Assembly (NCBI GenBank): GCA_016222805.1
Contig: JACRQG010000046.1
Coordinates: 277,077 to 310,162 of the forward strand
Reading direction: 5' to 3'
Length of the DNA stretch: 33,086 nucleotides
Origin: Verrucomicrobiota bacterium
GTDB taxonomy: Bacteria > Verrucomicrobiota > Verrucomicrobiia > Opitutales > Opitutaceae
Below are positions 8,628 to 25,076 of this stretch, piece by piece. The notes beneath the pieces are model-generated. The model saw only the letters and a list, made by a program, of their open reading frames with translations, had not been told where the DNA came from and made no database searches. A program made the translations under genes and the position numbers. Position 1 is the stretch's first letter; every line of letters starts with the position of its first letter.

Positions 8628-11036
8628 TTATTCCAGCATCCCCAGGGCGTGGGGGGCGAAGAACGTCATTTGCCCGACGCCCTTGCCGAAGCCGTCGCCG
8701 CCTCCGTGTGCCACCGCGGACTGGAAGCCCTCCCGCAGGATGCGGCGATGCTCGGCGTTGCCGGTCAGCCGTGCCTCGTAAGCCATCGCCTCGGCCGAAA
8801 GCATGAAGAGGCCATAGGGCGTCTTGGTCGAAAGGGGGCACGCGGTGTAGCGAAAGGTCTTCACGTCCTCCTGCCAGCACTCGCGGATCATCTGATCGAT
8901 TCCGATGGTGATCGCCCGCAGCACCTCGGGGTCTCCGCTGTGGCGGTGGTAGCGTGCCAGGGCGCACAGGGTCAGCCCTTCCATGAAGGGCACGTTCCCC
9001 TCGCAGCGCTGGTCGCGGTACTTGGTGTCGCGCTCCTTCTGCGTGCTTCCCGCCGGGTGCAGGCAGTGATCGCCCGCCAGTTTCACCACCCACCCGCGCT
9101 GCGGATCGAGTCCTTGCTTCAGGGCCTGCCAGTTGCGCGCCGCGGCCTCCAGGTACTTGCGGTCGCCGGTCGCCTCGTAGGCCGACAACACCAGGATCGT
9201 CGGCCAGCCCAGGGTGCGGATGTGCGTGCCCACCTTGGCGGTCATCGCGGAAGTCATCATGTCCGCCACCTGCAACGCCACTTCCCGCGCCCGCCGGTCG
9301 CCAGTCAGGTAGTAGTAGTCGAGATCCCCGCTGATCCACACGTGGCCGTAGTTCGCGCTGTGCCCCATCTGGTAGGTTCTTTCCACCGGCAGCGGCGCAT
9401 TGGCATAGTAGCCGCCGGTGTGATTCAGGCTGTGGAGCCAAATCTCCCCCACTTTGGGTGGCAGCCCGAACGGATTCTTCAGGAGCGGATTCACCGCATG
9501 CACCACATCGACGTCGATGTGGTGCCGCGCGGCCTGGGCACCGCGTTCGAAATACCGCCGATCTCCCGTGCGCAGGTACTGCACCAGCATGCCGCGCTGG
9601 AGATCGTATTCCAGGTTGCCCCAGTTCACCTGGCGCTCGCCATACCAGTCCCCGTAGTTGAGCAGGCCGTACTCGCGCGCCTGCTCCCGGCGCCGCAGAT
9701 GGCCGGCGAGCGCCCGCTCGAGCCAGGCGTCGTACCCGGAAAAGCGTCGGGGGTCTGCCGGAGGAAACTCCCCCGCCGCCCCGGTCGCACTCGCGTGCAC
9801 CGGATCGACCGTGGCCAGCAGCGGCTCCTCCGCCGCGGCAAAGAAGCGGCCGGGACCGTCCGCGGTCACCGGCGTGGCGAAGAAATTCACCCAGATCTCG
9901 TGGGTCTTGGCCACGCCGACCTTGAAGGTGTGCACGCCGCGCCGCAGCGCGTAGTAGAGCCGGCTTTCCTCCTCCAGCGGATGTCCGTCGTATGAGCCCG
10001 CGGGAAAGTCCGGGCACAGCCCGAGGGTCACCACACCGCCGCGCGCCTCCACGGACTTGGGCCATTGCTGCCAGAACTCGCGCACGCCGGCCGCGAAGCC
10101 GGCGTGGCGTCCCGCGACCAGCGCCCACCCCGGCGCGCGGCCGTCCCTCCCCCGCCCGTCGACCGTGAACGAGCGTTCGTCGACCTGGAAGAGTCTGCCC
10201 TCGCCCGGCGTCTGCCCTCCCAGCTGGGCCGCGCCCGCGGGCCCGGCCTCGTCCGCCAGCCGCAGGTCCACGCCAAGTTCCTCCAGACTGGTCATCACCT
10301 CGCCCGGACGGTCGTTGATGAAGGTGTAGCTGCACTTCAGATACGGCTGCCCGCGAAACGCGTGCAGGCGCAGGACGTACCGGAAGAAACTCCCCTCCGC
10401 GCCCCCGTGGCTCCCGCTCACCCGGACGACCGCCCGCAACGGACCCGCCTCTTCCACCACGATCTCCGCCGGCGCACGCGCGGCCTCGTACCGGCCGCCC
10501 TTGGTGTCCCGCACGAAGATCCCGCCGCCCGGACGCGTCACCCGTTCGTTCGCCGCGAACCGCCCGTCGCCATCGCGATCGAGCCAGACCGCGCCGAAGG
10601 GGTCGAAGCCGTCGCGGGTCAGTTCCACCTTGAGCGGCCCCGTTTCTAACGTGGCGCCGGTGGAGGTCGAAATCACCCGGAGGACCGGGCCGGTTGCCGG
10701 CACCGCCAGAGGCGGCGCGCTGACCAGCCGGTACCGCCCGCGCGATCCGGCGGCAAGATCTGCCTGGAAATCGACCAGCAGCCAGCGCACGGAGCCGTCC
10801 GGCCAGCGCACCAAGGCCTCCGCCTGCACCGGCCGGTGCTGCCCGACGTCATCCTTCAACGCCACCGCCGCCGGGTCCCGCAGCGCCCCGGGAGCCAGCG
10901 GCACACCGCTGGTGACCGGCCAGGCGCGGCGGACGACCTGACTCGGCTCCACCACCGTCAGGGGGACATCGACCGCCGCACCGGCCGACACCACCGTTCC
11001 AATCACAACGAGGGAAAAGAGGATCTGGATCTTCAT
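8628..11036 (-). CDS. exo-rhamnogalacturonan lyase-like protein (PcRGLX/YetA, PL26-type)
   Basis: An 802-residue exported protein with a Sec signal at about 1-21 (MKIQILFSLVVIGTVVSAGA). The arrangement fits the PcRGLX/YetA family. An N-terminal RIFT-barrel-like domain carries VRRAWPVTSGVPLAPGALRD and VRWPDGSVRWLLVDFQADL. A central beta-sandwich (about 120-420) includes LRLHAFRGQPYLKCSYTFIND, GRHAGFAAGVREFWQQWPKS and THEIWVNFFATP. A C-terminal alpha/alpha toroid (about 440-802) carries GLLNYGDWYGER, HHIDVDVVHAVNP, HTGGYYAN, MGHSANYGHVW and EGLTLCALARYHRHSGD. PL26 enzymes release unsaturated galacturonyl-rhamnose from rhamnogalacturonan I ends, so a pectin-degrading role is likely, but YetA homologues are diverse. 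It is followed by the Tat-exported isomerase-like gene, probably in one transcript. Confidence 0.82.
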   Translation of the reverse strand: MKIQILFSLVVIGTVVSAGAAVDVPLTVVEPSQVVRRAWPVTSGVPLAPGALRDPAAVALKDDVGQHRPVQAEALVRWPDGSVRWLLVDFQADLAAGSRGRYRLVSAPPLAVPATGPVLRVISTSTGATLETGPLKVELTRDGFDPFGAVWLDRDGDGRFAANERVTRPGGGIFVRDTKGGRYEAARAPAEIVVEEAGPLRAVVRVSGSHGGAEGSFFRYVLRLHAFRGQPYLKCSYTFINDRPGEVMTSLEELGVDLRLADEAGPAGAAQLGGQTPGEGRLFQVDERSFTVDGRGRDGRAPGWALVAGRHAGFAAGVREFWQQWPKSVEARGGVVTLGLCPDFPAGSYDGHPLEEESRLYYALRRGVHTFKVGVAKTHEIWVNFFATPVTADGPGRFFAAAEEPLLATVDPVHASATGAAGEFPPADPRRFSGYDAWLERALAGHLRRREQAREYGLLNYGDWYGERQVNWGNLEYDLQRGMLVQYLRTGDRRYFERGAQAARHHIDVDVVHAVNPLLKNPFGLPPKVGEIWLHSLNHTGGYYANAPLPVERTYQMGHSANYGHVWISGDLDYYYLTGDRRAREVALQVADMMTSAMTAKVGTHIRTLGWPTILVLSAYEATGDRKYLEAAARNWQALKQGLDPQRGWVVKLAGDHCLHPAGSTQKERDTKYRDQRCEGNVPFMEGLTLCALARYHRHSGDPEVLRAITIGIDQMIRECWQEDVKTFRYTACPLSTKTPYGLFMLSAEAMAYEARLTGNAEHRRILREGFQSAVAHGGGDGFGKGVGQMTFFAPHALGMLE

Positions 11037-11167
11037 GGCTCACGCTGCTTCCAACACGCAACTCGCAGCCCAGCCGAAGGCCCGGCCCAAAGCGAGCTCA
11101 CACCCTCGGGTACCGCCCAGCCTATCGCCCGCGAAGTTCCCCGGCGGAACCGGCGGCCAATCCCGGC

Positions 11168-14092
11168 TCACTTCTCCGGCACCAGCGCCACGCGGAAACC
11201 GACGTTGTGGTTCCGCGAGTCCGCTTCGGCCTTGCCGCGCACGGTCGACCGGAGCATCGCGGCGCTGATGATCCAGCTTCCGCCCCGGCGCACGCGCGCG
11301 CTTCCTCCGGCCGGCGGCTTGGGATCGGTCACGGGCGCGCCGGCAAGCTTGTCCACATACCGATCCGCGCACCACTCCCAGACATTGCCGTGCATGTCGC
11401 ACAGTCCCCAGGCATTGGGTTTACGCGTCCCGACCGCCTGCGGCCGCCGCGCGCTGTTGCCCTCGTGCCAGGCCAACTCGTCGATCGGCCCGGAAAAATC
11501 CCCAGTCGTGCCGGCGCGGCACGCGTGTTCCCACTGCGCCTCGGAGGGCAGGGCATAGACGTAGCCCGCGGGCAGCCGATCCGCCTCCCGCTCCCGCTGG
11601 GTCAACCGCCGGCAATACTCCACCGCCTCCTCCCAGGTGACGCTCTGCACCGGCAAATCGTCCCCTTTCACCGGCGACGGATTCACCTCGCCCATCAGGA
11701 CGCTCCACTCGCGCTGGCTGACCTCCGTCCGGCCGAGCCAGTACGGTTTGGTCAACGTGACCGGGGTCAGCGGCAGCTCATTGTCGATGCCGTGTTCCGA
11801 ACCCATCGTGAACCGGCCGGGGGCAATCGGCAGCAGCGCCAGTCCGAGGTTGGGCACCGTCCAGGGCTCACCCTCCTTCGGGACCACGACCGCTTCCAGT
11901 TCCACCGCGAGATCCTGCACGCGGCCGGCCGGCAGCGTCACCGACTGGCGCACGGTCTTGAACCCCGGCGCGGCAATTTCCAGGGCCAGTGGTTGCTCCG
12001 CCGGGAGCGACAGGCGCCCATTTCGGACCGGCGTCACCTTGCCGCCGACCTTAAGGCTGAATCCGGTGGGTCCCTTCACCGCCAACGCCAGGATCCCGGG
12101 CTTCGGGGTCAGCTTCACCGCCACCTTCACCAGCTGCGCATCGCGCACCTCCACGGTCTGCTTCCACGGCTCGTAGTTGCGGACCACGACCTCCACCACG
12201 TGCGGTCCGACTTCGAGACCTTCGAGCCGGCCCTGGGTCGGAACCACGGCGCGACCGTCGATGCGCACGGTCGAACCGGGAACTCGCCAGGGCCCGTCCC
12301 CCGATCGGAGCTCAATACCGCCGCTCGTGGGGATCAGGGTGCCCGCATCAACGCTCCGGGTTTCTCCCGGGCGCAGCGTGACGGCCTCCCGGAAACGACG
12401 ATGCCCGCTCAACACGACCTCCAGTTCCAGGGGTTTCTCGCTCGGCAGCAGCGGCAGCGTCGCCGGGGTCACGCCAACGCGTTCGCCGTGCAAACGGACT
12501 TCCGCTCCCGAGGGCAGGGAAAACACCCGCAGTTCGCCGGGACGCGCTGTCTGCGCCGGGGCCACGCGAACCAGCCTCTCGACCGCCAGCGTCACGTCCT
12601 CCTGCCGGACCTCCACACAGTCCGGATGGGTGAGCAGGAAATGGTAATTGCCGACCGGCAGTGAGCCTTCGACCCGGAGGCTGCCGGACTTGGGCACCTC
12701 TCCCACGGAACGGTGCCGACCGCGGGAATCGACGGCGACCACGGCGGTTCCCGGTCGGGCCGTGATTTCGACCACCCCGGGTACGACCGCCAGCCGCACC
12801 GCCACTTCACCGCGCCCCTCCCGCACCTGGACCTTGTCCTTGAATGGCCGGTGGCCGTCGGCTTGGACGATCAACTCATACTCGCCGTCAGGCAGATCGG
12901 CGATTGCCAGCCGCCCATCGTCGGCGACCGGGAGGTCTGACCTCGGTCCCAGCCACACCCTTGCTCCCACCTCGGGAGGATCCACGCGGACGACAAACTC
13001 CCGCACCTCCGCCTTGGCCACCGCTCCCGCGGTTATCCCCGGGGGGACAACCGGCACCGGTGCAGGCTCGCGACGCCACATCCCCAGCCACGCCACCGCC
13101 AGCAGAGCGGCCACCCCCAGGCCCAATGCCCCCCATCGCCACGCCGCCCAACCCGCGGGCGGAACTGCCGGCTCGCCGGGCATGGCTCCAAACGAAGTGC
13201 CCGGACGGGCGATTCCCAGCCTCGCCGCCACCTCACCCGCACTCTGCGGCCGGGCCGAGGCCTCCTTCGCCAGGCAGGCGGCAATCGTTGCCTCCCATTC
13301 GGCCGGAATCTCGCCTCGCCCCTGGATTCCCAGGGCCGCCCGGCGTTCCGCCATCCGCGGAGGCACCACCTCGCGCACCTGCAGGCTCAGGTTGCCTTCG
13401 TAGAACGGGGGCTTGCTGGTCAGCAATTCGTACAGCGTCGCGCCGAGGGAGTAGATGTCGTCCGTCACCACGGGCGCCGCGCCGAGCAGCTGCTGCGGTC
13501 CCGCATACGCCAGGGAAGCCGCGGTTGTCCGACCCTCCCGGCCCGTCACGCGGGTGTGCGATTCCCGCAGCCGCCGGGCAATCCCGAAGTCGACGATCTT
13601 CAGGTCCCCCTCCGAGTTCACCAGGAGGTTCAGGGGTTTCAGGTCCCGATGAACGATCCGCGCCTTCGCGTGGGCGTAATCGAGCGCGGAACACAGCTGC
13701 CCCACCCACGGCGCAATCTCCTCCGGATTGAAACACCGGTCCGGCTGGCCGAGTTTCCGGTCGGCCAGCGACGGCCCATCGACATACTCCATGCTGATCG
13801 CAGCCTGGCCGGGCTCCTCCACCAGATCATAGACCCGTACGATGTGCGGATGCGTCAGCTCCAGGCACCGCCGGGTCTCCGCCGCGAGATCCGCCATGGC
13901 TTCCCGATCCCGCACCACCAGTTCCGGGAGAAACTTGAGCGCCACCGGCCGGTTGAGCTTGAGATCATGGGCCCGCCACACGACGCCCATGCCGCCGCGA
14001 CCGATTTCCGCCGTCAGGCGGTAGCGGGTGTGAAAGACCCGCTCCGACGGCTCGATCGGAAGCGTTTTGGCCGGATCGAAGGGCTCGGACAT
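11168..14092 (-). CDS. membrane-anchored Ser/Thr protein kinase with PEGA repeats and a cysteine-less FGE-like domain
   Basis: A 974-residue Hanks-type kinase. The kinase domain (about 24-292) is complete: glycine loop GRGGMG (31-36), Lys53 in VALKF, HRDLKPLN (148-155) and DFG (168-170). The usual SPE motif reads GPQ (198-200). A single membrane helix follows at about 318-339, which puts the remainder outside the cytoplasm. Residues about 360-745 hold roughly five beta-rich PEGA or carboxypeptidase-regulatory-like repeats (for example GEYELIVQADGHRPF, VGPHVVEVVVRNYEPW, GFKTVRQSVTL). Residues 747-971 are an FGE-sulfatase domain (FTMGSEHG, LPVQSVTWEEAVEYCRRLT, LPSEAQWEHACRAG, DMHGNVWEWCADRY, RGGSW, VGFRVA). 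The two active-site cysteines of formylglycine-generating enzyme fall at Ile942 and Leu947, so no oxidase activity is expected. ATG 14092 is the family-like start. It is divergent from the TPR/cyclase-like gene. Confidence 0.92.
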   Translation of the reverse strand: MSEPFDPAKTLPIEPSERVFHTRYRLTAEIGRGGMGVVWRAHDLKLNRPVALKFLPELVVRDREAMADLAAETRRCLELTHPHIVRVYDLVEEPGQAAISMEYVDGPSLADRKLGQPDRCFNPEEIAPWVGQLCSALDYAHAKARIVHRDLKPLNLLVNSEGDLKIVDFGIARRLRESHTRVTGREGRTTAASLAYAGPQQLLGAAPVVTDDIYSLGATLYELLTSKPPFYEGNLSLQVREVVPPRMAERRAALGIQGRGEIPAEWEATIAACLAKEASARPQSAGEVAARLGIARPGTSFGAMPGEPAVPPAGWAAWRWGALGLGVAALLAVAWLGMWRREPAPVPVVPPGITAGAVAKAEVREFVVRVDPPEVGARVWLGPRSDLPVADDGRLAIADLPDGEYELIVQADGHRPFKDKVQVREGRGEVAVRLAVVPGVVEITARPGTAVVAVDSRGRHRSVGEVPKSGSLRVEGSLPVGNYHFLLTHPDCVEVRQEDVTLAVERLVRVAPAQTARPGELRVFSLPSGAEVRLHGERVGVTPATLPLLPSEKPLELEVVLSGHRRFREAVTLRPGETRSVDAGTLIPTSGGIELRSGDGPWRVPGSTVRIDGRAVVPTQGRLEGLEVGPHVVEVVVRNYEPWKQTVEVRDAQLVKVAVKLTPKPGILALAVKGPTGFSLKVGGKVTPVRNGRLSLPAEQPLALEIAAPGFKTVRQSVTLPAGRVQDLAVELEAVVVPKEGEPWTVPNLGLALLPIAPGRFTMGSEHGIDNELPLTPVTLTKPYWLGRTEVSQREWSVLMGEVNPSPVKGDDLPVQSVTWEEAVEYCRRLTQREREADRLPAGYVYALPSEAQWEHACRAGTTGDFSGPIDELAWHEGNSARRPQAVGTRKPNAWGLCDMHGNVWEWCADRYVDKLAGAPVTDPKPPAGGSARVRRGGSWIISAAMLRSTVRGKAEADSRNHNVGFRVALVPEK

Positions 14093-14244
14093 GCGTCTAT
14101 TGATGCACGCTGCGCACCCGTGGCAATAGGGAGTGCTCACCTCCCACCGGGAGGCCGATACGCATCGCCTCCGGGCGAAAATATCCGCCACGCGGCGCGA
14201 GTGCGGCATTGAAGCCGGGCGAGGAACTCCCAGCATCCGCCGCC
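14093..14244. promoter_or_regulatory. shared divergent control region of the kinase and TPR/cyclase-like genes
   Basis: This is the only gap between two divergent starts, so both promoters probably lie in these 152 bp. A 6-bp inverted repeat, CCTCCC (14140-14145) and GGGAGG (14149-14154), sits near the middle and an AT-rich GAAAATAT near 14177. No convincing sigma70 box pair was found on either strand. Confidence 0.3.
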
Positions 14245-16206
14245 ATGAGCCCCGAACCGCAGCAGCCGGAAGAATCCTCCCAGACGCGCTCCGCCCTCGC
14301 CCAGGACGTCCTGGAATACGAGAAGATGGTGCAGCAATCGGCGTCGTCCGGACAGCTGCTGACGGCGATCGAGGTCGCCCGCGACGGCCTGAATCGCTTC
14401 GGCGGGGGCAAGACCCTCCAGCAGCAGCTCGCCCTGGCGCTCGCCCAGACCGGGGCCCTCGACGCCGCCCGCCAGGTGCTCGGCGAAATTCTGAAGAACT
14501 CGGCGAAGGACGAGGAAACCCTCTGCCTCCTCGGCCGGGTGTACAAGGAGATGTGGCGGCACGCGTCGGTCCCCGCCGAGGCCAAGGAAGCCATCGAACA
14601 GGCGTGCAAATACTACGGCGATGCCTTCGCCCTGTACGAATCCTACTACCCGGGCATCAACCTGGCGTTCACGCTCGCGGCGGCCGGCGAACGCGCCAAG
14701 GCGGAGCAATCCGCCAAGAAGGTCGCCAAGCACTGCCGGGCGGAACTCGCCCGCGCATCCGGCGGCGGCGGCTGGTTCAACAAGCTCCTCGGTTCCGAAC
14801 CGGAGCAGGCCGCCGGTCCCGTGGACGGCTGGCTCGTCGCCACCCTCGCGGAGGCGCTGACACACCTCGGCGAAAAAAAGGAGGCCGCGCAGTTCTACCG
14901 GCAGGCGGCGCAGATCTTCCAGGGGCGCTGGCGCGACCTCGCCTCGATGCGCCGCCAGGCGCGGGAGATCCTCCGGTTCAACGGCCAGCCTCACGACTGG
15001 CTCGATGCGTGCTTCGAGTTTCCGACCGTCGTGGTCTTTTCCGGCCACATGATCGACGCGGCCGGCCGGTCCAGCCCGAGGTTCACCGCGGAGATGGAGC
15101 CCGCCGTCCGCGAGGAAATCCGCGCCTACCTGCAGCGGGTGAAGGCCGGGTTCGGCTACTCGTCCGCCGCCTGCGGCGGCGACCTGATCTTCTGCGAGTG
15201 CCTGCTCGAGATGGACGCCAAGGTGAACCTGGTGCTGCCGTGCCCGGTCAACGCCTTCCGCCGGCAGAGCGTCAGCATCGGCGGACCCGAGTGGGAGAAG
15301 CGCTTCAACGACGTGCTGGCCCGCGCCACCAACACCCTGATTGCCAACTCCACCGGCTATGGCGCCACCCATGAGGACGGTGCCAACTCGATCGGCCTGA
15401 TCTACGCCAACCGCATCCTCACCGGCCTGGCCGCCCTGCAGGCGCAGGCGCTCGATCTCGATCTGAAGCCGGTGGCCCTGTGGGACGGCAAACCCAACGG
15501 CCGCCACGGGGGCACCGCGAGCGTCGTTGCCGAATGGGAGAATCGCGGCTTCCATCCCCACGTCGTGAGCCTGAAGTCCGCGGACGGCTCCGTGCCGGCG
15601 GCGACGGTGCCCGCCGAGGCGCCGTCCCCGGAAGTCCAGGGCACCGGCGGCGCCTCCCTGCCGCAGGAGATCAAGACCCTGGTCTTCGCCGAGGTCGTCA
15701 ACTTCCGAAAGGTCGGCGAACACCAACTCCCGGCCTTCGTGCGCGAATTCAAGCAGGAGACCGCCCGCCTCATCGCCGGCCTGCCGGCGGCGCCGCTCGT
15801 CGCCGATGCCTCGGCCGGCTCGATGTACTTCGTCTTCGACGGGCTCGACGCCGCCGCCAAGCTGGCGCTCGACCTTCGCGACCTGATGGGCCGCAAGCCG
15901 TGGAGCGAACTCGGGCTGCCGCCCGATCTCAGCCTTCGCGTGGCGTTGCACGCGGGCCCGGTCTTCGTGTTTCCCGACCCCGTCACCGGCCGGCCCTCCT
16001 GTCTCGGCGCCCACATCACACGTGCCCAGCACATCCTGCCCACGGTCGCCCCCGGGCAGGTGTACGTCAGCCAGGAATACGCCGCCCTCGGCGGTGCCGA
16101 ACGGATGTCGGGCGTGTCCTTCGAATTCCTGGGCCGCCTGCCGACCACGCGCATGTTCGAGGATGCCCCACTCTACCGGCTCGAACGCCGGAAGTCGTCC
16201 CGCTGA
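14245..16206 (+). CDS. TPR (TRAFs-binding-like) + SLOG-like + degenerate class III cyclase-like fusion protein
   Basis: A 653-residue soluble protein in three parts. Residues about 20-250 are helical tetratricopeptide-like repeats of the TRAFs-binding/TPR-S type (ALAQTGALDAARQVLGEIL, YYPGINLAFTLAAAGERAKA, LGEKKEAAQFYRQAAQIF). Residues about 258-420 look like a Rossmannoid SLOG-type domain (VVVFSGHMIDAAGR, GYSSAACGGDLIFCECLLEM, VNLVLPCPVNAFRRQSV). Residues about 475-650 resemble a class III nucleotide cyclase (TLVFAEVVNF, LRVALHAGPVFVF, LGAHITRAQHI, FEFLGRLPTTRM). The first metal Asp is Glu483, the second is replaced near Gly525, and the Asn and Arg of the VNxAxR motif are Thr592 and His596, so catalysis is unlikely. 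ATG 14245 is preferred; a TTG at 14209 in frame would add 12 residues. The Rossmannoid assignment is inference. Linkage to a Ser/Thr kinase suggests a signalling or stress role. Confidence 0.82.
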   Translation: MSPEPQQPEESSQTRSALAQDVLEYEKMVQQSASSGQLLTAIEVARDGLNRFGGGKTLQQQLALALAQTGALDAARQVLGEILKNSAKDEETLCLLGRVYKEMWRHASVPAEAKEAIEQACKYYGDAFALYESYYPGINLAFTLAAAGERAKAEQSAKKVAKHCRAELARASGGGGWFNKLLGSEPEQAAGPVDGWLVATLAEALTHLGEKKEAAQFYRQAAQIFQGRWRDLASMRRQAREILRFNGQPHDWLDACFEFPTVVVFSGHMIDAAGRSSPRFTAEMEPAVREEIRAYLQRVKAGFGYSSAACGGDLIFCECLLEMDAKVNLVLPCPVNAFRRQSVSIGGPEWEKRFNDVLARATNTLIANSTGYGATHEDGANSIGLIYANRILTGLAALQAQALDLDLKPVALWDGKPNGRHGGTASVVAEWENRGFHPHVVSLKSADGSVPAATVPAEAPSPEVQGTGGASLPQEIKTLVFAEVVNFRKVGEHQLPAFVREFKQETARLIAGLPAAPLVADASAGSMYFVFDGLDAAAKLALDLRDLMGRKPWSELGLPPDLSLRVALHAGPVFVFPDPVTGRPSCLGAHITRAQHILPTVAPGQVYVSQEYAALGGAERMSGVSFEFLGRLPTTRMFEDAPLYRLERRKSSR

Positions 16207-16227
16207 CCATCGGTTCGCGCCGGTGGC

Positions 16228-16282
16228 GCCGACCCCGGCCGGCAGGTTCGATCCTCGGGGCCAGGCCGGCCTCAGCGAGGCC
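16228..16282 (+). repeat. 55-nt composite palindromic repeat (family B, copy 2)
   Basis: GCCGACCCCGGCCGGC (16228-16243), 20 bases, then GGCCGGCCTCAGCGAGGCC (16264-16282). The ends differ from the copy at 4889-4943 by one base each, while the middle 20 bases agree at only about nine positions. It sits in the 140-bp gap between two convergent genes, where its GGCCTC/GAGGCC hairpin could help end transcription on both strands. Confidence 0.6.
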
Positions 16283-16346
16283 AGCCACCTCCGGCAGTAT
16301 CCCGTCGGCTGGTGGCGGCGTCGCAACGCGCCGGAAAAAACGCAGG

Positions 16347-17288
16347 CTAGTCCTGCAGCGCCGGCATGGTCGCCTGCGCCCCGTGCAACTGGGGCAGCCA
16401 GAGGCGCACCCGCGTGCCGCGCCCGAGTTCGGACCCGATCCAGAACCGCCCGCCGAACTGACGCGTGGCGAGCACCGCCTTGGTCAAGCCGCAACCCGCG
16501 CCATAGGATCGCACGTCGGACACGTTGCTCCCGCGGCGGCCGAACTTCACCACCTCGGCCAGTTCCCCGGCCGGAATGCCGCGGCCGGTATCCTCCACCA
16601 CGCAACGAAAGCCCGCCGGGCTCGAATGCAGGGCGACGCGCAACTGGCCCCCGGGCGGCGTGTACTTGCGGGCATTCGCGATGAGATCGCGCAAGGTATC
16701 GCGCAGCAGCGTCGGCAGGACCAAGCCGGAGGATCGCGTGCTCTGGATCCGCAGGTCGACGTAATAGTCGTGCGCCTCCTGGACGGCGAGATTGTAGACG
16801 AACCGGTACCGCCCGCGGCTGTGCTGTTCCAGTGCGCGGAAGAACTCCTGCAGGTCGAGTTCGAGTTCCGCAATGGCGAGTGGGGCGACATGCCCGGGAT
16901 CCGCGACCCGGGCCACCAGTTCGCGAGCGCGCACGCTGAGGATCCAGAAGATGACGTCGAGTTGCGCACACGTTGCCGCCGCCGCCCCCGCGCCCGTCGG
17001 TCCATGCGCCGCCCGGTGCAGATCGATCTCGCCGCGAACCAGCGCCTCGAGGTCGTGCACATGCACCGCGTCGTGCATCGCGGCGCCGTGCTCCGTCAAT
17101 CGCTCCACCCTCCGCGCGCACTCCCCCAATCCCGCGGCCAGCAGCGCCGGGTCCCCGGTCATCTCGCGGCCGAGTTGCCCGAGTTCCTCCCGCAGAACAT
17201 TGTACAGATTGAGAAGCGAATGGCAGTTCGCGACTGACTGTTGCGCGGGACTCAGGGGAGCGATCTCGGTGATTTCGATTTCCGGCAT
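16347..17288 (-). CDS. cytosolic histidine-kinase-type ATPase without a canonical H-box
   Basis: A 313-residue protein with no signal peptide or membrane segment. The C-terminal half (about 185-300) is a GHKL/HATPase domain: N-box DLIANARKYTPPGG (Asn205), G1 box VEDTGRGIP (231-239), G2 box YGAGCGLTKAV (262-272), then GGRFWIGSELGRGTRVRLWLP. The N-terminal half is helical, but no standard HisKA H-E-x-x-x-P sequence is present. The best candidate phosphoacceptor is His23 in NCHSLLNLYNVLREEL, reminiscent of Spo0B-like or HWE-type helices. There is no receiver domain in the protein and no response regulator next door. ATG 17288 starts the compact protein; the frame remains open upstream without meaningful sequence. 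It is convergent with the TPR/cyclase-like gene and divergent from the lipoprotein gene. It could be an orphan kinase, a phosphatase or an anti-sigma-like ATPase. Confidence 0.85.
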   Translation of the reverse strand: MPEIEITEIAPLSPAQQSVANCHSLLNLYNVLREELGQLGREMTGDPALLAAGLGECARRVERLTEHGAAMHDAVHVHDLEALVRGEIDLHRAAHGPTGAGAAAATCAQLDVIFWILSVRARELVARVADPGHVAPLAIAELELDLQEFFRALEQHSRGRYRFVYNLAVQEAHDYYVDLRIQSTRSSGLVLPTLLRDTLRDLIANARKYTPPGGQLRVALHSSPAGFRCVVEDTGRGIPAGELAEVVKFGRRGSNVSDVRSYGAGCGLTKAVLATRQFGGRFWIGSELGRGTRVRLWLPQLHGAQATMPALQD

Positions 17289-17320: not shown

Positions 17321-17413
17321 ACCCGCGCCGCAACTCTGGTCGCGAAAAACCCACCAACCGTTCATCCCCCGCGTGGCTTGCACCTCCCGCATCGGAAGCC
17401 TCAGACTGGCCCC

Positions 17414-17902
17414 ATGTCCTCCCTCCCGCTCCTTGCGTCGATTCACCGGGCACTCGCGGGCGCCCTCGCCCTGGTCCTTCTCGGCACCGTGGTCGCCTGC
17501 CGGAAGGCGGACAGTTCCGCCCCTGCCCCGGCGGCCGCGACGGCCCCCGCGGCGGCGCCGGCCGACGCAGGCGCACCGCCCGAAGTGCAGAAGATGCTGG
17601 GCCGCTGGCTGCGGTCCGACGGCACCTACGAACTGGAGCTAAAGGGCGCCGACAAGAGCGGCGTCGTGCAGGCGGCTTATTTCAATCCCCGCTCGATCAA
17701 CGTCTCGCGCGCGATCTGGATGCGCGGCGCGGAGGGACTGCAAATCGTGGTCGAACTCAACGACGTCGGCTACCCCGGCGCCACCTACGTGCTCTCCCAC
17801 GACGCGAAGGACGACCGGCTGTTCGGCAAGTACAACCAGCCGCAGATGGGACAGACCTTTGAGGTCGATTTTGTCCGGAAGAAGGCGTCGCCGCTACGCT
17901 GA
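17414..17902 (+). CDS. small lipoprotein of unknown function
   Basis: A 162-residue protein. The N-terminus has a lipoprotein signal ending in LLGTVVAC, so Cys would be residue 29, and is followed by an Ala/Pro-rich linker (about 30-55) typical of membrane-tethered lipoproteins. The globular part (about 55-160) contains MLGRWLRSDGTYELELKG, VVQAAYFNPRSINVSRAIW, QIVVELNDVGYPGATYVLSHDAKDDRLFGKY and QTFEVDFVRK. This looks like a small beta-barrel that recurs in bacterial hypothetical proteins, but the family is not identified here. ATG 17414 is chosen over an in-frame TTG at 17378 because it gives the proper signal length. It lies 43 bp before the DTW-domain gene on the same strand and may be cotranscribed with it. 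Confidence 0.78.
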   Translation: MSSLPLLASIHRALAGALALVLLGTVVACRKADSSAPAPAAATAPAAAPADAGAPPEVQKMLGRWLRSDGTYELELKGADKSGVVQAAYFNPRSINVSRAIWMRGAEGLQIVVELNDVGYPGATYVLSHDAKDDRLFGKYNQPQMGQTFEVDFVRKKASPLR

Positions 17903-17945
17903 TGGCCACTTGCCGGCGAATCCGCGGGGGGCAGGGGCGCGTCCG

Positions 17946-18623
17946 ATGCGCCGGCTGACCGCCAACTTCGCGCAACGCTGTCCGCGGTGCCTGCTCACCC
18001 GCCGCTGGTGCGTGTGCCCGGCGCACCGCGAGGTCCGTTGCGCGCTGGCCGTCGACGTCCTGATGCACCCGCGCGAGCAGTTTCGCCCCACCAGCACCGG
18101 GCACCTCATCCGTCGCGTGCTGCCGGACTCGCGGCAGCATGTCTGGACCCGCGAGCGCTCGCTTGCCGCCGACGCGGTGCGGCGGCCGGGACGCGAACTC
18201 TGGGTCCTCCACCCGCACGGCCAGCCTCCGCCCATCGAATCGTCGCCGGAGCAGGTGCAGGTGCTGCTGCTCGACGGCGTCTGGAGTGAAGCCACGGCGA
18301 TGGCCCAGGCCGTCGCCGGCTGGGGCCGGCTGGTCGCGCTGCCGATGCAAGGCACGAGCCGTTTCTGGCTGCGCACGCAACAGGACGGCGGCCGGTTCTC
18401 GACTGTGGAGTCGCTGCTGTTCCTCCTGCAGACCTTCGGCCTCCGGGAGGCGCATGACGAACTGCGCCTGCAGTTCGAGTTGCACGTCTACGCCAGCCTG
18501 CGCGCCCGCGGCCGGCGCGACCTCGCGGAGCATTTCCTCGACGGCTCGCCCGCGGCCAAGGCCTTCGCCGGCTTCCTTGCCCAACTGCACGCCCGGCGTC
18601 CCCTCGCACCGCCCCCTCCCTGA
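17946..18623 (+). CDS. DTW-domain protein, probable tRNA-uridine aminocarboxypropyltransferase
   Basis: A 225-residue protein of the DTW family, whose characterised members (TapT/YfiP, DTWD1/2) transfer the aminocarboxypropyl group of SAM to tRNA uridine to make acp3U. The N-terminal zinc-ribbon-like cysteines are present (C12, C15, C22, C24 in CPRC...WCVC). The signature region reads LLLDGVWSEATAMAQ, that is D110-G-V112-W113: the Thr of the defining D-x-T-W motif is replaced by Val. Downstream FWLRTQQDGGRFSTVESLLFLL matches the conserved STxE segment (152-155). Start ATG 17946 directly precedes the cysteine motif. The context, after a lipoprotein gene and before a receptor gene, gives no further hint. 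Confidence 0.85.
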   Translation: MRRLTANFAQRCPRCLLTRRWCVCPAHREVRCALAVDVLMHPREQFRPTSTGHLIRRVLPDSRQHVWTRERSLAADAVRRPGRELWVLHPHGQPPPIESSPEQVQVLLLDGVWSEATAMAQAVAGWGRLVALPMQGTSRFWLRTQQDGGRFSTVESLLFLLQTFGLREAHDELRLQFELHVYASLRARGRRDLAEHFLDGSPAAKAFAGFLAQLHARRPLAPPPP

Positions 18624-18756
18624 AACGGACGCAACCGGCGCCCTCCCGAAAAAACGTGGACTTGGCCGCCTCCCGTCCCTTGATTGAACACCTCCACAAT
18701 TGGACAGTCTGCGCCGACGCACCTGCCAGTGGGTCGCGCGCCCAACACCCAACAGC

Positions 18757-21700
18757 ATGAACTACTCCCCCGTCGGTTCCGTACCGCGTTGGCTGCGATT
18801 TGCAGCCCGCTTCGCCCTCCTCGCGGCGCTCGCCAGCGCCGCCCTCTCCGCCCAGACGGGCAGCGTCACCGGCTCGGTGACCAGCACCGCCACCCGCAAC
18901 GCCCTCCAGGGCGCGGTGGTGAGCATCCCGGCCCTCAACCGCACCGAGATCACCGACAGCGCGGGCAGCTTCCTTTTCCAGGGCCTGCCCGCCGGCCCGG
19001 TGGAACTCCTCGTCACCTACGCGGGCTTCGATGACCGCCGCATCCCGGCGACGGTGCGCGCCGGCGAAACAACCCGCCTCGACGCCGACATGAAGCCCAC
19101 CGCTGCGATCATGATGGAGGCCTTCACCGTCGCCACCGTCCGCGAGGGCCAGGCGCTTGCCATCACCGAGCAGCGCAACGCCCCCAACCTGAAGAACATC
19201 ACCGCACTCGACGAGTGGGGTGTCCTCCCGACCCAAAACGTCGGTGAACTGGTCTCCCGCATGCCGGGCATCACCGGCTGGCAGACCGACGAGGACGACC
19301 TGATCATGAATGTCAGCATCCGCGGCCAGCCGTTCAATTACACCCGCCTGAACATCGACGGCATGTCCTCGACCGGTGTCGGCGGCGACGGCCGCACCGC
19401 CACCCTGCACTCCTTCTCCGGGTCGATGTACGAACAAATCGAGATCATCGCCGGCCAGACGCCCGACAAGCGGGCCGATTCCCTCGGCGGCCAGCTCAAC
19501 CTCAAGACCCGCTCGCCTCTCGCGATGGCCGAGCGCCGGCGCGTGACCTACGCCGTCAGTGCACGCTATTTCCCCTCCTGGTCCAACGTCAACGACGTGG
19601 TGTCCAAGCGCCCCATCCGCCCCGACATCAGCGGCACCTACACCGAGGTCTACGATGTCCGCGGCGGCGTGCGCAATCTCGCCCTCTCCGTCAGCGCGTC
19701 CTACCAGGAGGTGTTGAGCCCGTTCGATTCCGACCTGCTGCAATACGAAAACACCACTTCGGACGTCGCGTTCTTCAACAACTACCTCCGAAAGAGCGGC
19801 TACAACAACCGCTTCATCACCGCCGTCAGCGCGCGCGCCGATTACCGCCTGTCGCCGCGGACGAACGTTTCGCTGCGCTACCTCTTCAATGCCGGGTCCG
19901 AACCGTTCTTCAACTACACGGACATCCAGCCGCGCGTGACCACCAACCTCACGGTCTTCAACCCGAATGTCGCCGGCTCCACCGGCGCCATCATGCCCGG
20001 CTACACCGCCAACCGCACCGAGATCCGCGCCGCCGGCAACTCGTCGATGTTCCTCAACCCGCAGCGGTATTCCTTCACCAGCCGCAATCCCACGGGCACG
20101 CTCGTCTTCGAGCACAACTTCGGCCGTCTGAAGCTCGACCACGCCTACCGCTGGTCCAAGACCCACTGGGACTCCGGTGCCGGCCGCAAGCGCGAGAACG
20201 GCACCCTCCAGCTCCGCACGCCCGACGGCCAGATCGGCTTCGTCCTCGATAACTCCAAGCGCTTCGGCCAGGTCTTCACCCAGACCTCCGGGCCCGACGT
20301 CTACAATCCGGCCAACTACGCCGCCTTCCAGACGGGCGCCGCCAACGCCACGACGCAGCCCGTGCCCACCACCTCGGTGATCTTCAACAAGCGCGACACG
20401 ATCACCGACACCAACGAGGTCACCGGCACCGTCAACGCCAACTACGCCTTCGCCACCGAGATCCAGCTCAGTCTCAAGGCCGGCCTCGACAGCATCAACC
20501 GCCGCGTCAACAACCGCCAGCCGTACAACCAGCGTTGGTACGGGGTCGTCGGCACCACCCTCACCGGTACCCCGCTGATGGAACTCACCGAGTTCGAGCG
20601 CGAGCACGGCGGCCGGCGCCTGCCGGTCTTCGATCCCACCGTGGTCAGCACACAGCTGAACAATCCGGCCCTCTGGTACCAGGACCTCAACGTCACCGCG
20701 ACGTCGATCTACACCAATCGCCGGCTCCTCGAGGAAAGCGTTGATTCGGCCTACCTCCAGGGCCAGACCCGCCTGAAGGGCCTCACGATTCTCGGTGGCG
20801 TCCGCGGCGAATGGGTCAGCACCGACACCTTCACCTACGCCTTCCGCACCACCCGCACGCCCATCGCAGTCGAACCCGACCACTTCAAGCGTGCCAAGAT
20901 GGACGCCGTGGCCATCACCCGCGACGGCAAGTACCACAAGTTCTTCCCCAGCCTCCATCTCGCCTACGACATCACGCCCAACCTCAAGCTGCGCGGCAGC
21001 TACTCGACCAGCTACGGCCGGCCGTTCCTCGCCCAGCTGATCGCCGGCGTCACTCCCAACGACACCGCCCGCACGGTCACGATGGGCAACCCGGAGCTGA
21101 AGCCGCAGATGGCGAAGAACTACGATCTCAAGCTGGAATATTATTACAGCAACAGCGGCATGTTCTCGGTCAGCGGCTATCGCAAGACGATCAAGGACTA
21201 TATCGGCTCCGCGGCGCGCTCCGGCTACGTGATTCCCGACGGTCCGGACAACGGATTTGAGGGCAACTACGTCGGCTACGAAATCGTCCAGGCCAACAAC
21301 CTCGGCAGCGCCAAGCTCCGCGGCATGGAGGTCGATTTCCGTCAGCGCCTCGTCTTCCTTCCCGGGGTGCTCAAAGGCCTGACTGTGCGGGGCAACTACA
21401 CCTACCTGGAAACGGAAGGCCGTTTCAACGGCACCGTCGACCTCAAGAACGGCCAGGTCGCCGGTTTTGTGCCCCGCGCGGCCAACCTCGGCCTCCAATA
21501 TGCCTACCGGAAGTTCGGCGCCTCCTTCGACGTGAACTACACCGGCCGCTACCCGACCGGCTATAGCCTCACCTCGCCCGGCAGCGGCAATATCTACCGC
21601 GACAAGATTATCCGGATGAACGCGGGCGTGACGTACAAGGTGCGGCCGAACGCGACCGCGTTCCTCAACATCATCAACCTCGCCGAGGAAGGGACGGAAA

Positions 21701-21783
21701 TCTACACCTACACGCCCTCGCGGCCGCGCCAGGCTCTGGTTGCGTCCCAGGCGCTCAAGTTCGGCGTGACGGGCCAGTTCTAA
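18757..21783 (+). CDS. TonB-dependent receptor with carboxypeptidase-like N-terminal domain (paralogue 1)
   Basis: A 1008-residue outer-membrane receptor. A Sec signal (about 1-32, ending ALSA) is followed by a carboxypeptidase-regulatory-like domain (about 36-115, NALQGAVVSIPALNRTEI, GLPAGPVELLVTYAGF). Then come a TonB-box-like stretch (MEAFTVAT), the plug domain (about 135-260, TQNVGELVSRMPGI, VSIRGQPFNYTRLNIDGMSS, LGGQLNLKTRS) and the long beta-barrel, ending in the aromatic Phe of VTGQF. The style matches the TonB-Xanth-Caul type receptors that import oligosaccharides, but the ligand cannot be read from sequence. ATG 18757 is chosen for its signal peptide over a TTG at 18700. It is closely related to the next gene and is followed by a strong terminator. 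Confidence 0.94.
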   Translation: MNYSPVGSVPRWLRFAARFALLAALASAALSAQTGSVTGSVTSTATRNALQGAVVSIPALNRTEITDSAGSFLFQGLPAGPVELLVTYAGFDDRRIPATVRAGETTRLDADMKPTAAIMMEAFTVATVREGQALAITEQRNAPNLKNITALDEWGVLPTQNVGELVSRMPGITGWQTDEDDLIMNVSIRGQPFNYTRLNIDGMSSTGVGGDGRTATLHSFSGSMYEQIEIIAGQTPDKRADSLGGQLNLKTRSPLAMAERRRVTYAVSARYFPSWSNVNDVVSKRPIRPDISGTYTEVYDVRGGVRNLALSVSASYQEVLSPFDSDLLQYENTTSDVAFFNNYLRKSGYNNRFITAVSARADYRLSPRTNVSLRYLFNAGSEPFFNYTDIQPRVTTNLTVFNPNVAGSTGAIMPGYTANRTEIRAAGNSSMFLNPQRYSFTSRNPTGTLVFEHNFGRLKLDHAYRWSKTHWDSGAGRKRENGTLQLRTPDGQIGFVLDNSKRFGQVFTQTSGPDVYNPANYAAFQTGAANATTQPVPTTSVIFNKRDTITDTNEVTGTVNANYAFATEIQLSLKAGLDSINRRVNNRQPYNQRWYGVVGTTLTGTPLMELTEFEREHGGRRLPVFDPTVVSTQLNNPALWYQDLNVTATSIYTNRRLLEESVDSAYLQGQTRLKGLTILGGVRGEWVSTDTFTYAFRTTRTPIAVEPDHFKRAKMDAVAITRDGKYHKFFPSLHLAYDITPNLKLRGSYSTSYGRPFLAQLIAGVTPNDTARTVTMGNPELKPQMAKNYDLKLEYYYSNSGMFSVSGYRKTIKDYIGSAARSGYVIPDGPDNGFEGNYVGYEIVQANNLGSAKLRGMEVDFRQRLVFLPGVLKGLTVRGNYTYLETEGRFNGTVDLKNGQVAGFVPRAANLGLQYAYRKFGASFDVNYTGRYPTGYSLTSPGSGNIYRDKIIRMNAGVTYKVRPNATAFLNIINLAEEGTEIYTYTPSRPRQALVASQALKFGVTGQF

Positions 21784-21811
21784 TCCCGGATCCGCTTCCG
21801 GTTGTTCTCCC

Positions 21812-21844
21812 CGCCCCCGGCCGCAACGCCGGGGGCGTTTTCTT
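21812..21844 (+). terminator. intrinsic terminator of the first TonB-dependent receptor
   Basis: CGCCCCCGGC (21812-21821) pairs with GCCGGGGGCG (21828-21837) to give a perfect 10-bp GC-rich stem with a 6-nt loop. The tract TTTTCTT (21838-21844) follows immediately, 28 bp after the stop codon. This is the clearest Rho-independent terminator in the window. Confidence 0.88.
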
Positions 21845-21881
21845 ACCGGGCACCTCACTTGCGCCCGCCGTCCGCCACCCG

Positions 21882-21958
21882 TGTGGGCGCGGCGACCCCG
21901 CCGCGCGCCCTAACCGGTTATCCGACGGAATCAGCGGGGCGAGGTCGCCCCGCCCACA
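21882..21958. repeat. 77-nt inverted pair of palindromic repeats (family A)
   Basis: Plus-strand TGTGGGCGCGGCGACC at 21882 and minus-strand TGTGGGCGGGGCGACC read from 21958 face each other. Each continues into its own hairpin: GCGCGGCG/CGCCGCGC (21887-21906) and GCGGGGCG/CGCCCCGC (21934-21953), both with 4-nt loops. The two hairpins are 27 nt apart. The same layout recurs at 29560-29635 and half of it at 25117-25141. Confidence 0.72.
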
Positions 21959-22100
21959 GGGGAAAAGGCCCTGCCGGCGGGCGTGCCTCCTCGGCGCTTT
22001 CGCCACTCCGCCACTCCACTCCGGCGCTTGAACCCCACCCGGCCTCGTGGTGCACTTCGCGACCAGCGGCCGGTGATCTCCCCGGTCCTGCCCTGCTCCA

Positions 22101-25076
22101 ATGAACTGCCTCCTCGGTCTCCGCGACGCTCACCGCCGACTCCGGCGAATCCTCGGTCTCTGCGCCCTCGCGCTCCTCGGCTCACCCGCCGCCCTGCCCG
22201 GTGCCACCGCTCCGGCCTCCACCGGCACCCTCGTGGGCACGGTTACGAGCACCGGCACGCAGAACGCGCTGCAGGGCGCGGTCGTGACCATTCCGGCCCT
22301 CAGCCGGAGCGAACTCACCGACAACACCGGCAGTTTCGCCTTCTCCGGCCTCCCGGCCGGCGCCGTCGAACTCGTCCTCTCCTACACCGGCTTCAACGAT
22401 GAACGCCGCACCGCGGCCATCCGTGCCGGCGAGACCAGCCGACTCGCCGTCGCCCTCACGCCGACTCCGGCCATCACGATGGAGGCGTTCACCGTCTCCG
22501 CCGAACGCGAGGGCCACGCGCTCGCCGCCACCGAGCAGCGCAACGCCGACAACATCAAGACCGTCGCCGCCATCGACTCGTGGGGCAACATGCCGAACAT
22601 GAGCGTGGGCGAACTCGCCATGCGCCTTCCCGGCATGACGTTCCAGCTCGATAGCGACGACGTCGTCATGAACGTCAGCATCCGCGGCATGTCGACGGAC
22701 TTCACGCGACTGAGCATCGATGGCATGTCCTCGACCTCGGTCGCCGGCAACGGCCGCACCGCCAGCCTCCACTCCTTCTCCGGCGCCCTCTACGAGCAGG
22801 TCGAGGTCGTGTCCGGCGTGCTGCCCGACAGCTCCGCCGATTCGATCGGCGGTTCCGTCAATCTCAAGACCCGCTCCAGCTTCAGCATGGGGGAGAAGCG
22901 GCGGATCAACTACAGCATTGGCGCCCGCTGGGCACCGCCCTTCTTCTACCGCACCCCGGAGCGCGCCGAGCGCAACCTGCATCATTCGGTCAGTTTCTCC
23001 TACTCCGAACGCTTCAGCATCCGCGGCGGGCGCAACAACCTCGGCGTGTCCGTGAGCCTCGCGCAGAGCGAAAACGTGAATCCGTTCAACATCCGAATCT
23101 TCGACTACCAGGCGACCACCAATGCCGCCGCCTACCTGCGCGATTTCCAGACCTTCAGCGGCATGAACAACCGCCATCTCACCGCCGTGAACCTGAAGGC
23201 CGACTACAAGTACTCCGACGCCTCGAAGTTCTCCGTCAGCCTGATCTACAACCGCGGCGCTGAACCGTCCTTCGACCGCAACGTCATCCAGGCTTCCACC
23301 GCCTCCACCACGCCCACGGTCGGCACCGCCGCCACCGCCCAGATTGTCCCGGGCTACACGGAGAGTCGCACGGAGATCCGTCCGGTCACGGGTTCCAACT
23401 TCGACATCAGCCAGGCGCACTGGTCGTTTTTCAGCGACAACCCCACCGTCACGTTCTCCGGCGATCACCGCTGGGGCCGCCTCGTGGCCGACTACGCCGC
23501 CCGCTACAGCTACACGCACTTTGACTCCGGCACCGGCAAGACCGGCCCGGGCAAGGCCTCCGGCGGCCAGCTCACCATGCGCGTGCCCGGCATCGGCTTC
23601 GTCCTCGACAAGTCCGACCCCGACGGCCGCGTCTTCACCCAGACCGCCGGGCCCAGCGTGTATGACCTTTCCAGCTACACCAGCAACCTCGTGTTCACCA
23701 AACGCGACTCGATCTCCGATGTGCCGGAGGTCAGCGCCAACGCCAATGCCGCCCTCACGCTGCCCACGCGGCTGCCGTTCACCGTCAAGACCGGCGTCAA
23801 CTTCCGCCGCCGCGGCTGGGAAACGCGGCAGCGCGACACCCGCCGCTGGAACCGCACCGCCGGCGCGCCCCCGTTGCCCGCCGTGTTCGTGCCGCTCTCG
23901 ACCTTCGATCTCCGCCAGGGCGGCCCCCGCATCCCCGCTGTCGACGTTCGCGCCCTTAACGACGAGCTCTCCAACCCCGCGCTCTGGACCGAGGATCTCG
24001 TCTACCGCGCGCAGCAGAAGTACGTGAGCAACCGCAACGCCACCGAGGAAATCCAGGCGGGTTACGTGCGCCTCACCACCCGCCTGCAGCGACTGGGCCT
24101 CACCGGCGGACTCCGCGTCGAGAACACCGAAATCCAGGGCTACACCTTCCTGAAGTTCCGCAGCACGACGGTGGCGCAGGAGCCCGACCCCTTCAAGCGC
24201 GCCGCCCTCGACTATGGCGACGTCAGCAATCGCGGCGACTACCGGCGGTCGTTCCCGAGCCTCCATGCCACCTACGATCTCGCCGCCAATCTCAAGGCCC
24301 GCGCCAGCTGGTCCACCAGCTTCGCCCGGCCCAACTTCGTCAGCCTCATCCCCACCGCCACGGTCAACGAGGCGCAGCAGACGGTCACCGGCTCCAACCC
24401 GGGCCTCGGCCCGCAGTATGCCCGCAACCTCGACGCCAAGCTCGAGTATTATTTCAAACCCGCGGGCCTGCTCTCGGTGGGCTACTTCAAGAAAAACATC
24501 CGCGACTACATCGTCACGCAGGAGGTCGGCATCGTGCCGTTCGGGCCGGACAACGGCTTCGACGGCTTCTACGAGGGCTACCGGTTCTTCACCAGCGTCA
24601 ACGGCGGCACCGCCAACGTCCGCGGCTGGGAGTTCGACTATCGCCAGCAGTTCACCTTCTTGCCCGGTCTCCTGCGCGGGCTCGGGCTCATGGCCAACTA
24701 CACACGCCTCGAGACCGAGGGCGACTTCGGGGGCACTTACCGCCGCACCGACGAAATCACCGGGTTCACCCCGCGCTCCGCCAACGTCAGCCTCACCTAT
24801 ACCTACCGTGGCTTCACGGCCCGCGTGACCACGAGCTACACCGGGCGCATCATCACGACCTATTCCGCCAACGAGGCCAACCGCGTCTACCGGAAGCCGA
24901 TCACCACGACCAACCTGAACCTCTCCTACCGCGTGCACCGCCACGCCAACCTCTTCTGCGATGTCAGCAACCTCCTCGAGACCGGACCGTCGTTCTATCG
25001 CTACATTCCCGCGCGCCTGCGCGAAACACGCTTCCTGCCTTCGGCCGTGACCTTCGGGGTCAATGGCCAGTTCTAG
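22101..25076 (+). CDS. TonB-dependent receptor with carboxypeptidase-like N-terminal domain (paralogue 2)
   Basis: A 991-residue outer-membrane receptor and close paralogue of the preceding gene. The order is the same: signal peptide (about 1-35), regulatory-like domain (NALQGAVVTIPALSRSEL, GLPAGAVELVLSYTGF), TonB-box-like MEAFTVSA, plug (MSVGELAMRLPGM, VSIRGMSTDFTRLSIDGMSS, IGGSVNLKTRS) and barrel ending VNGQF. N-terminal and plug domains are nearly colinear with paralogue 1, while the barrel diverges in loop lengths and sequence (for example the TTRLQRLGLTGGLRVENTE region), so the ligands probably differ. ATG 22101 gives a plausible signal peptide. No SusD-like partner is encoded nearby, as expected outside the Bacteroidota. 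Confidence 0.93.
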   Translation: MNCLLGLRDAHRRLRRILGLCALALLGSPAALPGATAPASTGTLVGTVTSTGTQNALQGAVVTIPALSRSELTDNTGSFAFSGLPAGAVELVLSYTGFNDERRTAAIRAGETSRLAVALTPTPAITMEAFTVSAEREGHALAATEQRNADNIKTVAAIDSWGNMPNMSVGELAMRLPGMTFQLDSDDVVMNVSIRGMSTDFTRLSIDGMSSTSVAGNGRTASLHSFSGALYEQVEVVSGVLPDSSADSIGGSVNLKTRSSFSMGEKRRINYSIGARWAPPFFYRTPERAERNLHHSVSFSYSERFSIRGGRNNLGVSVSLAQSENVNPFNIRIFDYQATTNAAAYLRDFQTFSGMNNRHLTAVNLKADYKYSDASKFSVSLIYNRGAEPSFDRNVIQASTASTTPTVGTAATAQIVPGYTESRTEIRPVTGSNFDISQAHWSFFSDNPTVTFSGDHRWGRLVADYAARYSYTHFDSGTGKTGPGKASGGQLTMRVPGIGFVLDKSDPDGRVFTQTAGPSVYDLSSYTSNLVFTKRDSISDVPEVSANANAALTLPTRLPFTVKTGVNFRRRGWETRQRDTRRWNRTAGAPPLPAVFVPLSTFDLRQGGPRIPAVDVRALNDELSNPALWTEDLVYRAQQKYVSNRNATEEIQAGYVRLTTRLQRLGLTGGLRVENTEIQGYTFLKFRSTTVAQEPDPFKRAALDYGDVSNRGDYRRSFPSLHATYDLAANLKARASWSTSFARPNFVSLIPTATVNEAQQTVTGSNPGLGPQYARNLDAKLEYYFKPAGLLSVGYFKKNIRDYIVTQEVGIVPFGPDNGFDGFYEGYRFFTSVNGGTANVRGWEFDYRQQFTFLPGLLRGLGLMANYTRLETEGDFGGTYRRTDEITGFTPRSANVSLTYTYRGFTARVTTSYTGRIITTYSANEANRVYRKPITTTNLNLSYRVHRHANLFCDVSNLLETGPSFYRYIPARLRETRFLPSAVTFGVNGQF

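Follow-up and report, generated by a model that had tools for sequence, protein, structure and literature searches.

A TPR-S/Rossmannoid/pseudo-cyclase fusion protein of Opitutaceae and its relatives beside effector-type genes

A stretch of 33,086 nucleotides (the window; contig JACRQG010000046.1, positions 277,077 to 310,162) from a Verrucomicrobiota genome of 7.9 Mb, assigned to the Opitutaceae, contains a gene for a fusion protein in which a TPR-S region is followed by a Rossmannoid, SLOG-like domain and a class III cyclase domain. A gene for a Ser/Thr kinase is divergent from it, and a gene for a histidine-kinase-like protein of the GHKL type is convergent with it; all three reading frames are as drawn in a preliminary description of this DNA, in which kinase and fusion were thought to form a module. 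This raises the question whether the three genes form one signalling system, or what else the fusion protein might be. The three neighbouring genes are not a conserved unit. The fusion protein is probably, with a likelihood which we put at about 60%, a derived and mostly effector-orphaned sensor from a cyclase-based conflict-signalling family.

Dead and intact cyclases and their neighbourhoods

The class III cyclase fold of the fusion was clear from the structure model and from fold searches. Close homologues numbered 273, of which 120, including the window protein, were listed; the first metal-binding Asp was missing in 113 and the second in all of these 120. In the window protein the two positions are occupied by E483 and G525. 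Both Asp residues were kept in 19 of 20 more distant loci, i.e., in 11 of 11 aligned loci, in L111 and in 7 of 8 further loci from the phylum. Judged by its metal residues, the domain of the window protein is a pseudoenzyme and not an active class III nucleotide cyclase. In a tree of 45 rows, the 30 rows of the dead clade were found on one side of a branch at 100/100, and the intact types on the other. The dead domain is still maintained; the listed homologues are 627–733 amino acids long, like the window protein, and mean identity to the latter (119 homologues) was 56% for the cyclase domain, 67% for the TPR region and 62% for the middle domain.

Within the family, 31 of the 252 genomes had the fusion, counting that of the window, and the order contributed three more genomes. 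Thirty-three loci from other genomes were read, 21 of the dead clade and 12 of the intact type, with flanks of up to about 9–11 kb, and less at contig ends (flanks were short on at least one side in L040, L042, L096, L104, L105, L109, L114, L116, L188 and L191). A sample of the phylum comprised 387 genomes, 16 of them with a match, and nine loci were read, from families other than those already covered. Neighbouring TIR genes were counted from the loci read plus open reading frames (ORFs) and Pfam; for neighbours in the further dead-clade loci, Pfam was applied to the TIR gene of L100 only.

Genes for TIR, NACHT/nSTAND or S8 (subtilase) proteins were located within about 2 kb at 14 of 19 intact-type loci, as against 1 of 22 dead-clade loci (window included), the latter figure being perhaps too low, since the TIR genes of L184 and L189 had escaped tblastn and the older loci were not queried again with other TIR types. 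The contrast corresponds to a Fisher p of 7e-6 when relatedness is ignored; the 19 do not include L191, which is partial and at the edge of a contig, or L190, whose metal residues are lost. Among the intact-type loci of the Opitutales, 10 of 12 had a TIR, DUF4062-NACHT or subtilase gene at a distance of about 2 kb or less, and four of the seven phylum loci with both Asp residues were beside effector-type genes, namely TIR (G465, G351), nSTAND (G544) and subtilase (G599). Spacing can be very close: the NACHT gene of G035 starts 7 bases, and the TIR-FGE gene of G025 12 bases, past the end of the cyclase gene. The gene adjoining the cyclase is the sole S8 match of the genome in G599, and the sole DUF4062 match in G035. 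Support for the earlier suggestion of a conflict system comes from most of the intact-cyclase relatives, with their adjacent TIR, STAND NTPase and subtilase genes, and not from the kinase.

Several observations weigh against such an origin of the fusion. The 14 loci are not independent, since six are from genus g47 (which has also one locus without such a neighbour) and two from genus g32, and five intact-type loci have no such neighbour (L046, L117, L183, L185 and L188, the last of which ends at a contig end). Inside the dead clade, a TIR gene adjoins the fusion in G136 and another is found at about 4 kb in G051; outside the clade, the dead-cyclase protein of G497 is still encoded near a subtilase. 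TIR genes are common in these genomes, with at least 92 TIR_2 matches in G003 (92 candidates scored), and therefore some adjacency is expected by chance. Scanning the TIR, NACHT and nSTAND neighbours with Pfam gave no cyclic-nucleotide-binding domain among the matches listed (25 of 33 in one list). The outgroups of the tree are long branches, and the SLOG assignment, described below, is without sequence-profile support.

The architecture, the cyclase fold, the residue losses and the neighbourhoods are computed findings; ligand, direction of signalling, effector activation and the role as an adaptor are what we infer. Members of the family consist of TPR-S, the Rossmannoid SLOG-like domain and the class III cyclase. 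Where the cyclase is intact, a ligand derived from stress or from NAD/nucleotides is probably sensed by the TPR-S/Rossmannoid part, which switches the cyclase; the cyclic nucleotide made by the latter could then set off the TIR, STAND or subtilase effector encoded nearby. The window's Opitutaceae clade has lost the metal site of its cyclase, most simply once, and most of the linkage to effectors, with the sensor part and the cyclase fold being kept. The window protein would then probably be a cytosolic ligand-sensing adaptor, whose pseudo-cyclase could serve as a nucleotide-binding or dimerisation module.

Many class III cyclases act as dimers. The pseudo-cyclase might heterodimerise with a separate active cyclase of the genome and regulate it, like the regulatory halves of heterodimeric cyclases, and the retained fold and conserved domain would be in accordance with such a role; no partner cyclase is known, the genome not having been searched for one, and this explanation is regarded as unlikely.

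Other arrangements were seen among the relatives. A second dead cyclase (L190 of G497, 9446-11098), with His and Ala at the metal positions, is from another family of the class and is located near a subtilase gene. A RyR domain is fused to the intact-type protein in G101 and G544 and is encoded next door in G465 (locations: L110, 8540-10816; L186, 9189-11525; L184, 10927-11214). In G599, G572 and G351 (L187, L188, L189) the cyclase is in a separate frame which overlaps or abuts the TPR-S/Rossmannoid frame, due to a split gene or a frameshift. On a Tolypothrix plasmid, 92 bases separate a short cyclase gene from the TIR gene that follows it.

The TPR-S region and the middle domain

The N-terminal region scored 80.1 bits with the Pfam model TPR-S (curated cut-off 27.6) and 51.8 bits with MAP3K_TRAF_bd (curated cut-off 24.1), and a profile of the fusion family matched the ASK1 structure 5ulm with an E value of 3.8e-4; the TRAFs-binding type of TPR assumed initially is thereby corroborated.

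The middle domain had been described as SLOG-like, with a Rossmannoid fold to be expected for residues 258-420. The structure model gave a Rossmannoid fold for this region, and that part of the description stands; a SLOG sequence-profile match was not obtained. With the whole fusion model, Foldseek returned a DprA-like viral protein of 153 residues (TMt 0.76, E 2.8e-5) and a YspA/cpYpsA-related SLOG protein (E 0.016), in both cases without aligned ranges. Fold searches of the whole fusion against PDB and VIA were filled mainly by the cyclase domain and are thus no test of the middle domain. Residues such as G267, H268, D313, E318, W350, R353, D414 and GGT422-424 were kept in at least 95% of 131 aligned sequences. 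Pfam gave no meaningful match for this domain, and PDB profiles gave chance matches only. Two candidate families were rejected: LOG (PF03641), which was the SLOG family compared by hhalign, and nucleoside deoxyribosyltransferase (PF05014) each reached 0.3%, no better than reversed or unrelated controls (0.1–0.7%). According to the model, the middle domain is Rossmannoid, and may be called SLOG-like by fold only. Short homologues of it are encoded on rhizobial plasmids, near TIR genes.

The kinase and GHKL genes beside the fusion

The features of the locus are given in Table 1.

Table 1. Location of genes, domains and residues (positions refer to the window)
Feature	Position	Strand	Basis
Ser/Thr kinase with transmembrane segment, PEGA and FGE domains	11168..14092	-	Pfam, neighbourhoods
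FGE-sulfatase-type domain of kinase, residues 754-969	11186..11833	-	Pfam, E 4e-42
Likely transmembrane segment of kinase, residues 320-339	13076..13135	-	Hydropathy maximum
Kinase domain, residues 24-283	13244..14023	-	Pfam; motifs VALK, HRDLK, DFG
Spacer of 152 bp separating the divergent starts of kinase and fusion	14093..14244		
Fusion gene (TPR-S, Rossmannoid SLOG-like, pseudo-class-III cyclase), 653 aa	14245..16206	+	ORF, Pfam, homologues, structure model
TPR-S / TRAFs-binding-type TPR region, residues 16-245	14290..14979	+	Pfam TPR-S, E 2e-22; helical repeats in model; ASK1 profile match
Rossmannoid middle domain, SLOG-like by fold, residues 255-445	15007..15579	+	Alternating strands and helices in structure model
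Class III cyclase fold, catalytically degenerate, residues 471-650	15655..16194	+	
E483 (Glu), first metal-Asp position	15691..15693	+	Asp in 7/120 listed close homologues
G525 (Gly), second metal-Asp position	15817..15819	+	Asp in 0/120 listed close homologues
Terminator-like stem, end of GHKL gene	16341..16357	-	Pattern scan; 3 sites in region against 1.9 expected by chance
Soluble histidine-kinase-like GHKL protein	16347..17288	-	Pfam HATPase_c
HATPase_c (ATP-binding) domain of GHKL protein, residues 193-300	16389..16712	-	Pfam
His23 of GHKL protein, candidate phosphoacceptor	17220..17222	-	120/120 listed homologues

Conservation of the gene order was examined from all three sides. None of the 33 fusion loci in other genomes had a kinase-domain match (E 1e-4) or an orthologous GHKL gene in the flanks read; the sole partner-type matches were weak GHKL-domain matches (L097, L099) and FGE domains without a kinase (L045, L110). 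Orthologues were searched in 25 (kinase) and 28 (GHKL) of the 252 genomes. Three full-length kinase orthologues (G094, G008, G001) and one consisting of the kinase domain only (G003) were obtained, and the fusion was encoded at none of these four loci. Around them nothing except the kinase matched the window, apart from one match of 32% between two distant ORFs, and comparison of the kinase loci with each other yielded, besides the kinase, weak matches of 26–39% only. Likewise, neither fusion nor kinase was found in the stretches read at six GHKL loci, which are from five other genomes and from a second copy in the window's genome. A three-gene module, as implied by the preliminary description, is rejected on these comparisons; kinase and GHKL protein most likely belong to other pathways.

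What lies next to the fusion is common to members of a subgroup of the dead clade and not to the clade as a whole. A membrane transporter gene and a gene for an HI0933-type flavoprotein are found beside the fusion in three other relatives, and one gene family in 5 of 14 further dead-clade loci. Downstream of the fusion region, at window positions 17378-18623, a gene for a small lipoprotein-like protein and one for a DTW-domain protein have been retained together with the fusion in four relatives, namely G003, G009, G015 and G020, which does not hold for the kinase and GHKL genes. Further on (18700-25076), the window contains a tandem pair of outer-membrane-receptor-like genes; the first encodes a TonB receptor according to Pfam, and the second matches the same relatives with lower identity.

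The GHKL protein has a histidine-kinase-like fold, and WalK, HK853 and other histidine kinases are the closest known systems. The N, G1 and G2 boxes for ATP binding are present, with N205, D233, G235, G237, G263 and G267 kept by all of the 120 listed homologues. It had been called H-box-less, a view which is rejected because His23, a candidate phosphoacceptor, is invariant in all of the listed homologues; this residue is at the start of a helix (23-44), and the end residues of the fold alignments, which were given without residue mapping, place it near the H-box helix. A second histidine-kinase-like copy in the genome (G000:C50:433022-433942) is 46% identical. A match to the PADLOC model PDC-M43B was weak (E 2e-4) and was given no weight, and the same applies to 33 PADLOC matches of the kinase, which look like generic kinase-domain models (PD-T4-6 and similar).

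A pairing of fusion and GHKL protein in the closest relatives, in which the histidine-kinase-like partner would read the state of the fusion, is considered improbable. The hits P0008 (fusion, 74% identity) and P0190 (GHKL, 68%) have the same entry for the longest contig, 26,635 bases, and may share that contig, although an equal figure is a mere hint; G003, which is of the same genus and has a fusion of 76% identity, lacks an orthologous GHKL gene in the flanks read, and in G002, G006 and G008 a GHKL orthologue was found, but no fusion. In the window the two genes converge, and hence they have no common operon.

The ASK-like module of the preliminary description, in which a periplasmic PEGA/FGE sensor drives the kinase and the latter phosphorylates the fusion, is very unlikely. 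Its attraction was in the divergent starts, only 152 bp apart, the presence of the kinase motifs and the relationship of TPR-S to the TPR region of ASK1; adjacency of the two genes is not conserved (0 of 33 fusion loci, 0 of 4 kinase loci), and G008 and G094 possess a full-length kinase while no fusion was found. Some close relatives of the fusion (74–80% identity) are outside the set of loci read. That the fusion is a decaying, functionless gene of the dead clade is hardly credible, since the loss of catalytic residues and of most effector-type linkage, and one TAG stop inside the open-frame stretch of the G003 locus, are opposed by homologues as long as the window protein and by mean identities of 56–67% in all three domains.

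Relation to known systems and implications

With TPR-S conflict-system proteins and with the TPR region of animal ASK (MAP3K5) the fusion shares the matches to TPR-S, MAP3K_TRAF_bd and 5ulm. It differs in that a kinase is neither part of the protein nor conserved next to it; instead, the TPR region is followed by a Rossmannoid domain and a cyclase. A class III cyclase beside a TIR gene, as found in several intact-type relatives, resembles Pycsar, for which PycC with the metal residues D102 and D146 has been described, together with a receptor composed of a cyclic-nucleotide-binding domain and TIR (PMC11224242). Unlike Pycsar, the window protein lacks both metal Asp residues, TIR queries found no match in the window (a transmembrane receptor was not sought), and the TIR neighbours scanned in relatives list no cyclic-nucleotide-binding domain of Pfam. 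The fusion is thus outside the definition of Pycsar, i.e., a catalytic cyclase with an adjoining cyclic-nucleotide-binding transmembrane or TIR receptor, and PADLOC had no model for it or for two intact relatives.

Several parts (cNMP cyclase, TIR, SLOG, FGS, kinase) are in common with the vWA-MoxR/VMAP conflict systems, where several of the cNMP cyclases fused to vWA are reported to be catalytically inactive, with nucleotide binding as perhaps their only activity (PMC7159879). No vWA, MoxR or VMAP component was seen, although no search was aimed at them. Among the papers listed in our literature search there was none on the TPR-S/Rossmannoid/cyclase architecture, which is not to claim its absence from print; the family would appear to be little described, and its parts resemble published conflict systems.

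A bolder version can be formulated, which we regard as doubtful. The family, with RyR domains fused or adjoining in some members, could be a cyclic-nucleotide immune system which has not yet been described and whose TIR, STAND and subtilase effectors are interchangeable, once converted in the Opitutaceae to a messenger-free version in which the pseudo-cyclase senses nucleotides directly; the PEGA/FGE kinase of the window would then be a freshly swapped-in effector, in the divergent slot which is held by TIR genes in relatives.

If the fusion is indeed an effector-orphaned sensor, a defence-type cyclase signalling family with several kinds of effectors could be studied in two states, one intact and effector-linked, the other messenger-dead and mostly unlinked. 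Whether pseudo-cyclases act as nucleotide sensors would become testable, as would the question of what is sensed by TPR-S, the region held in common with animal ASK kinases.

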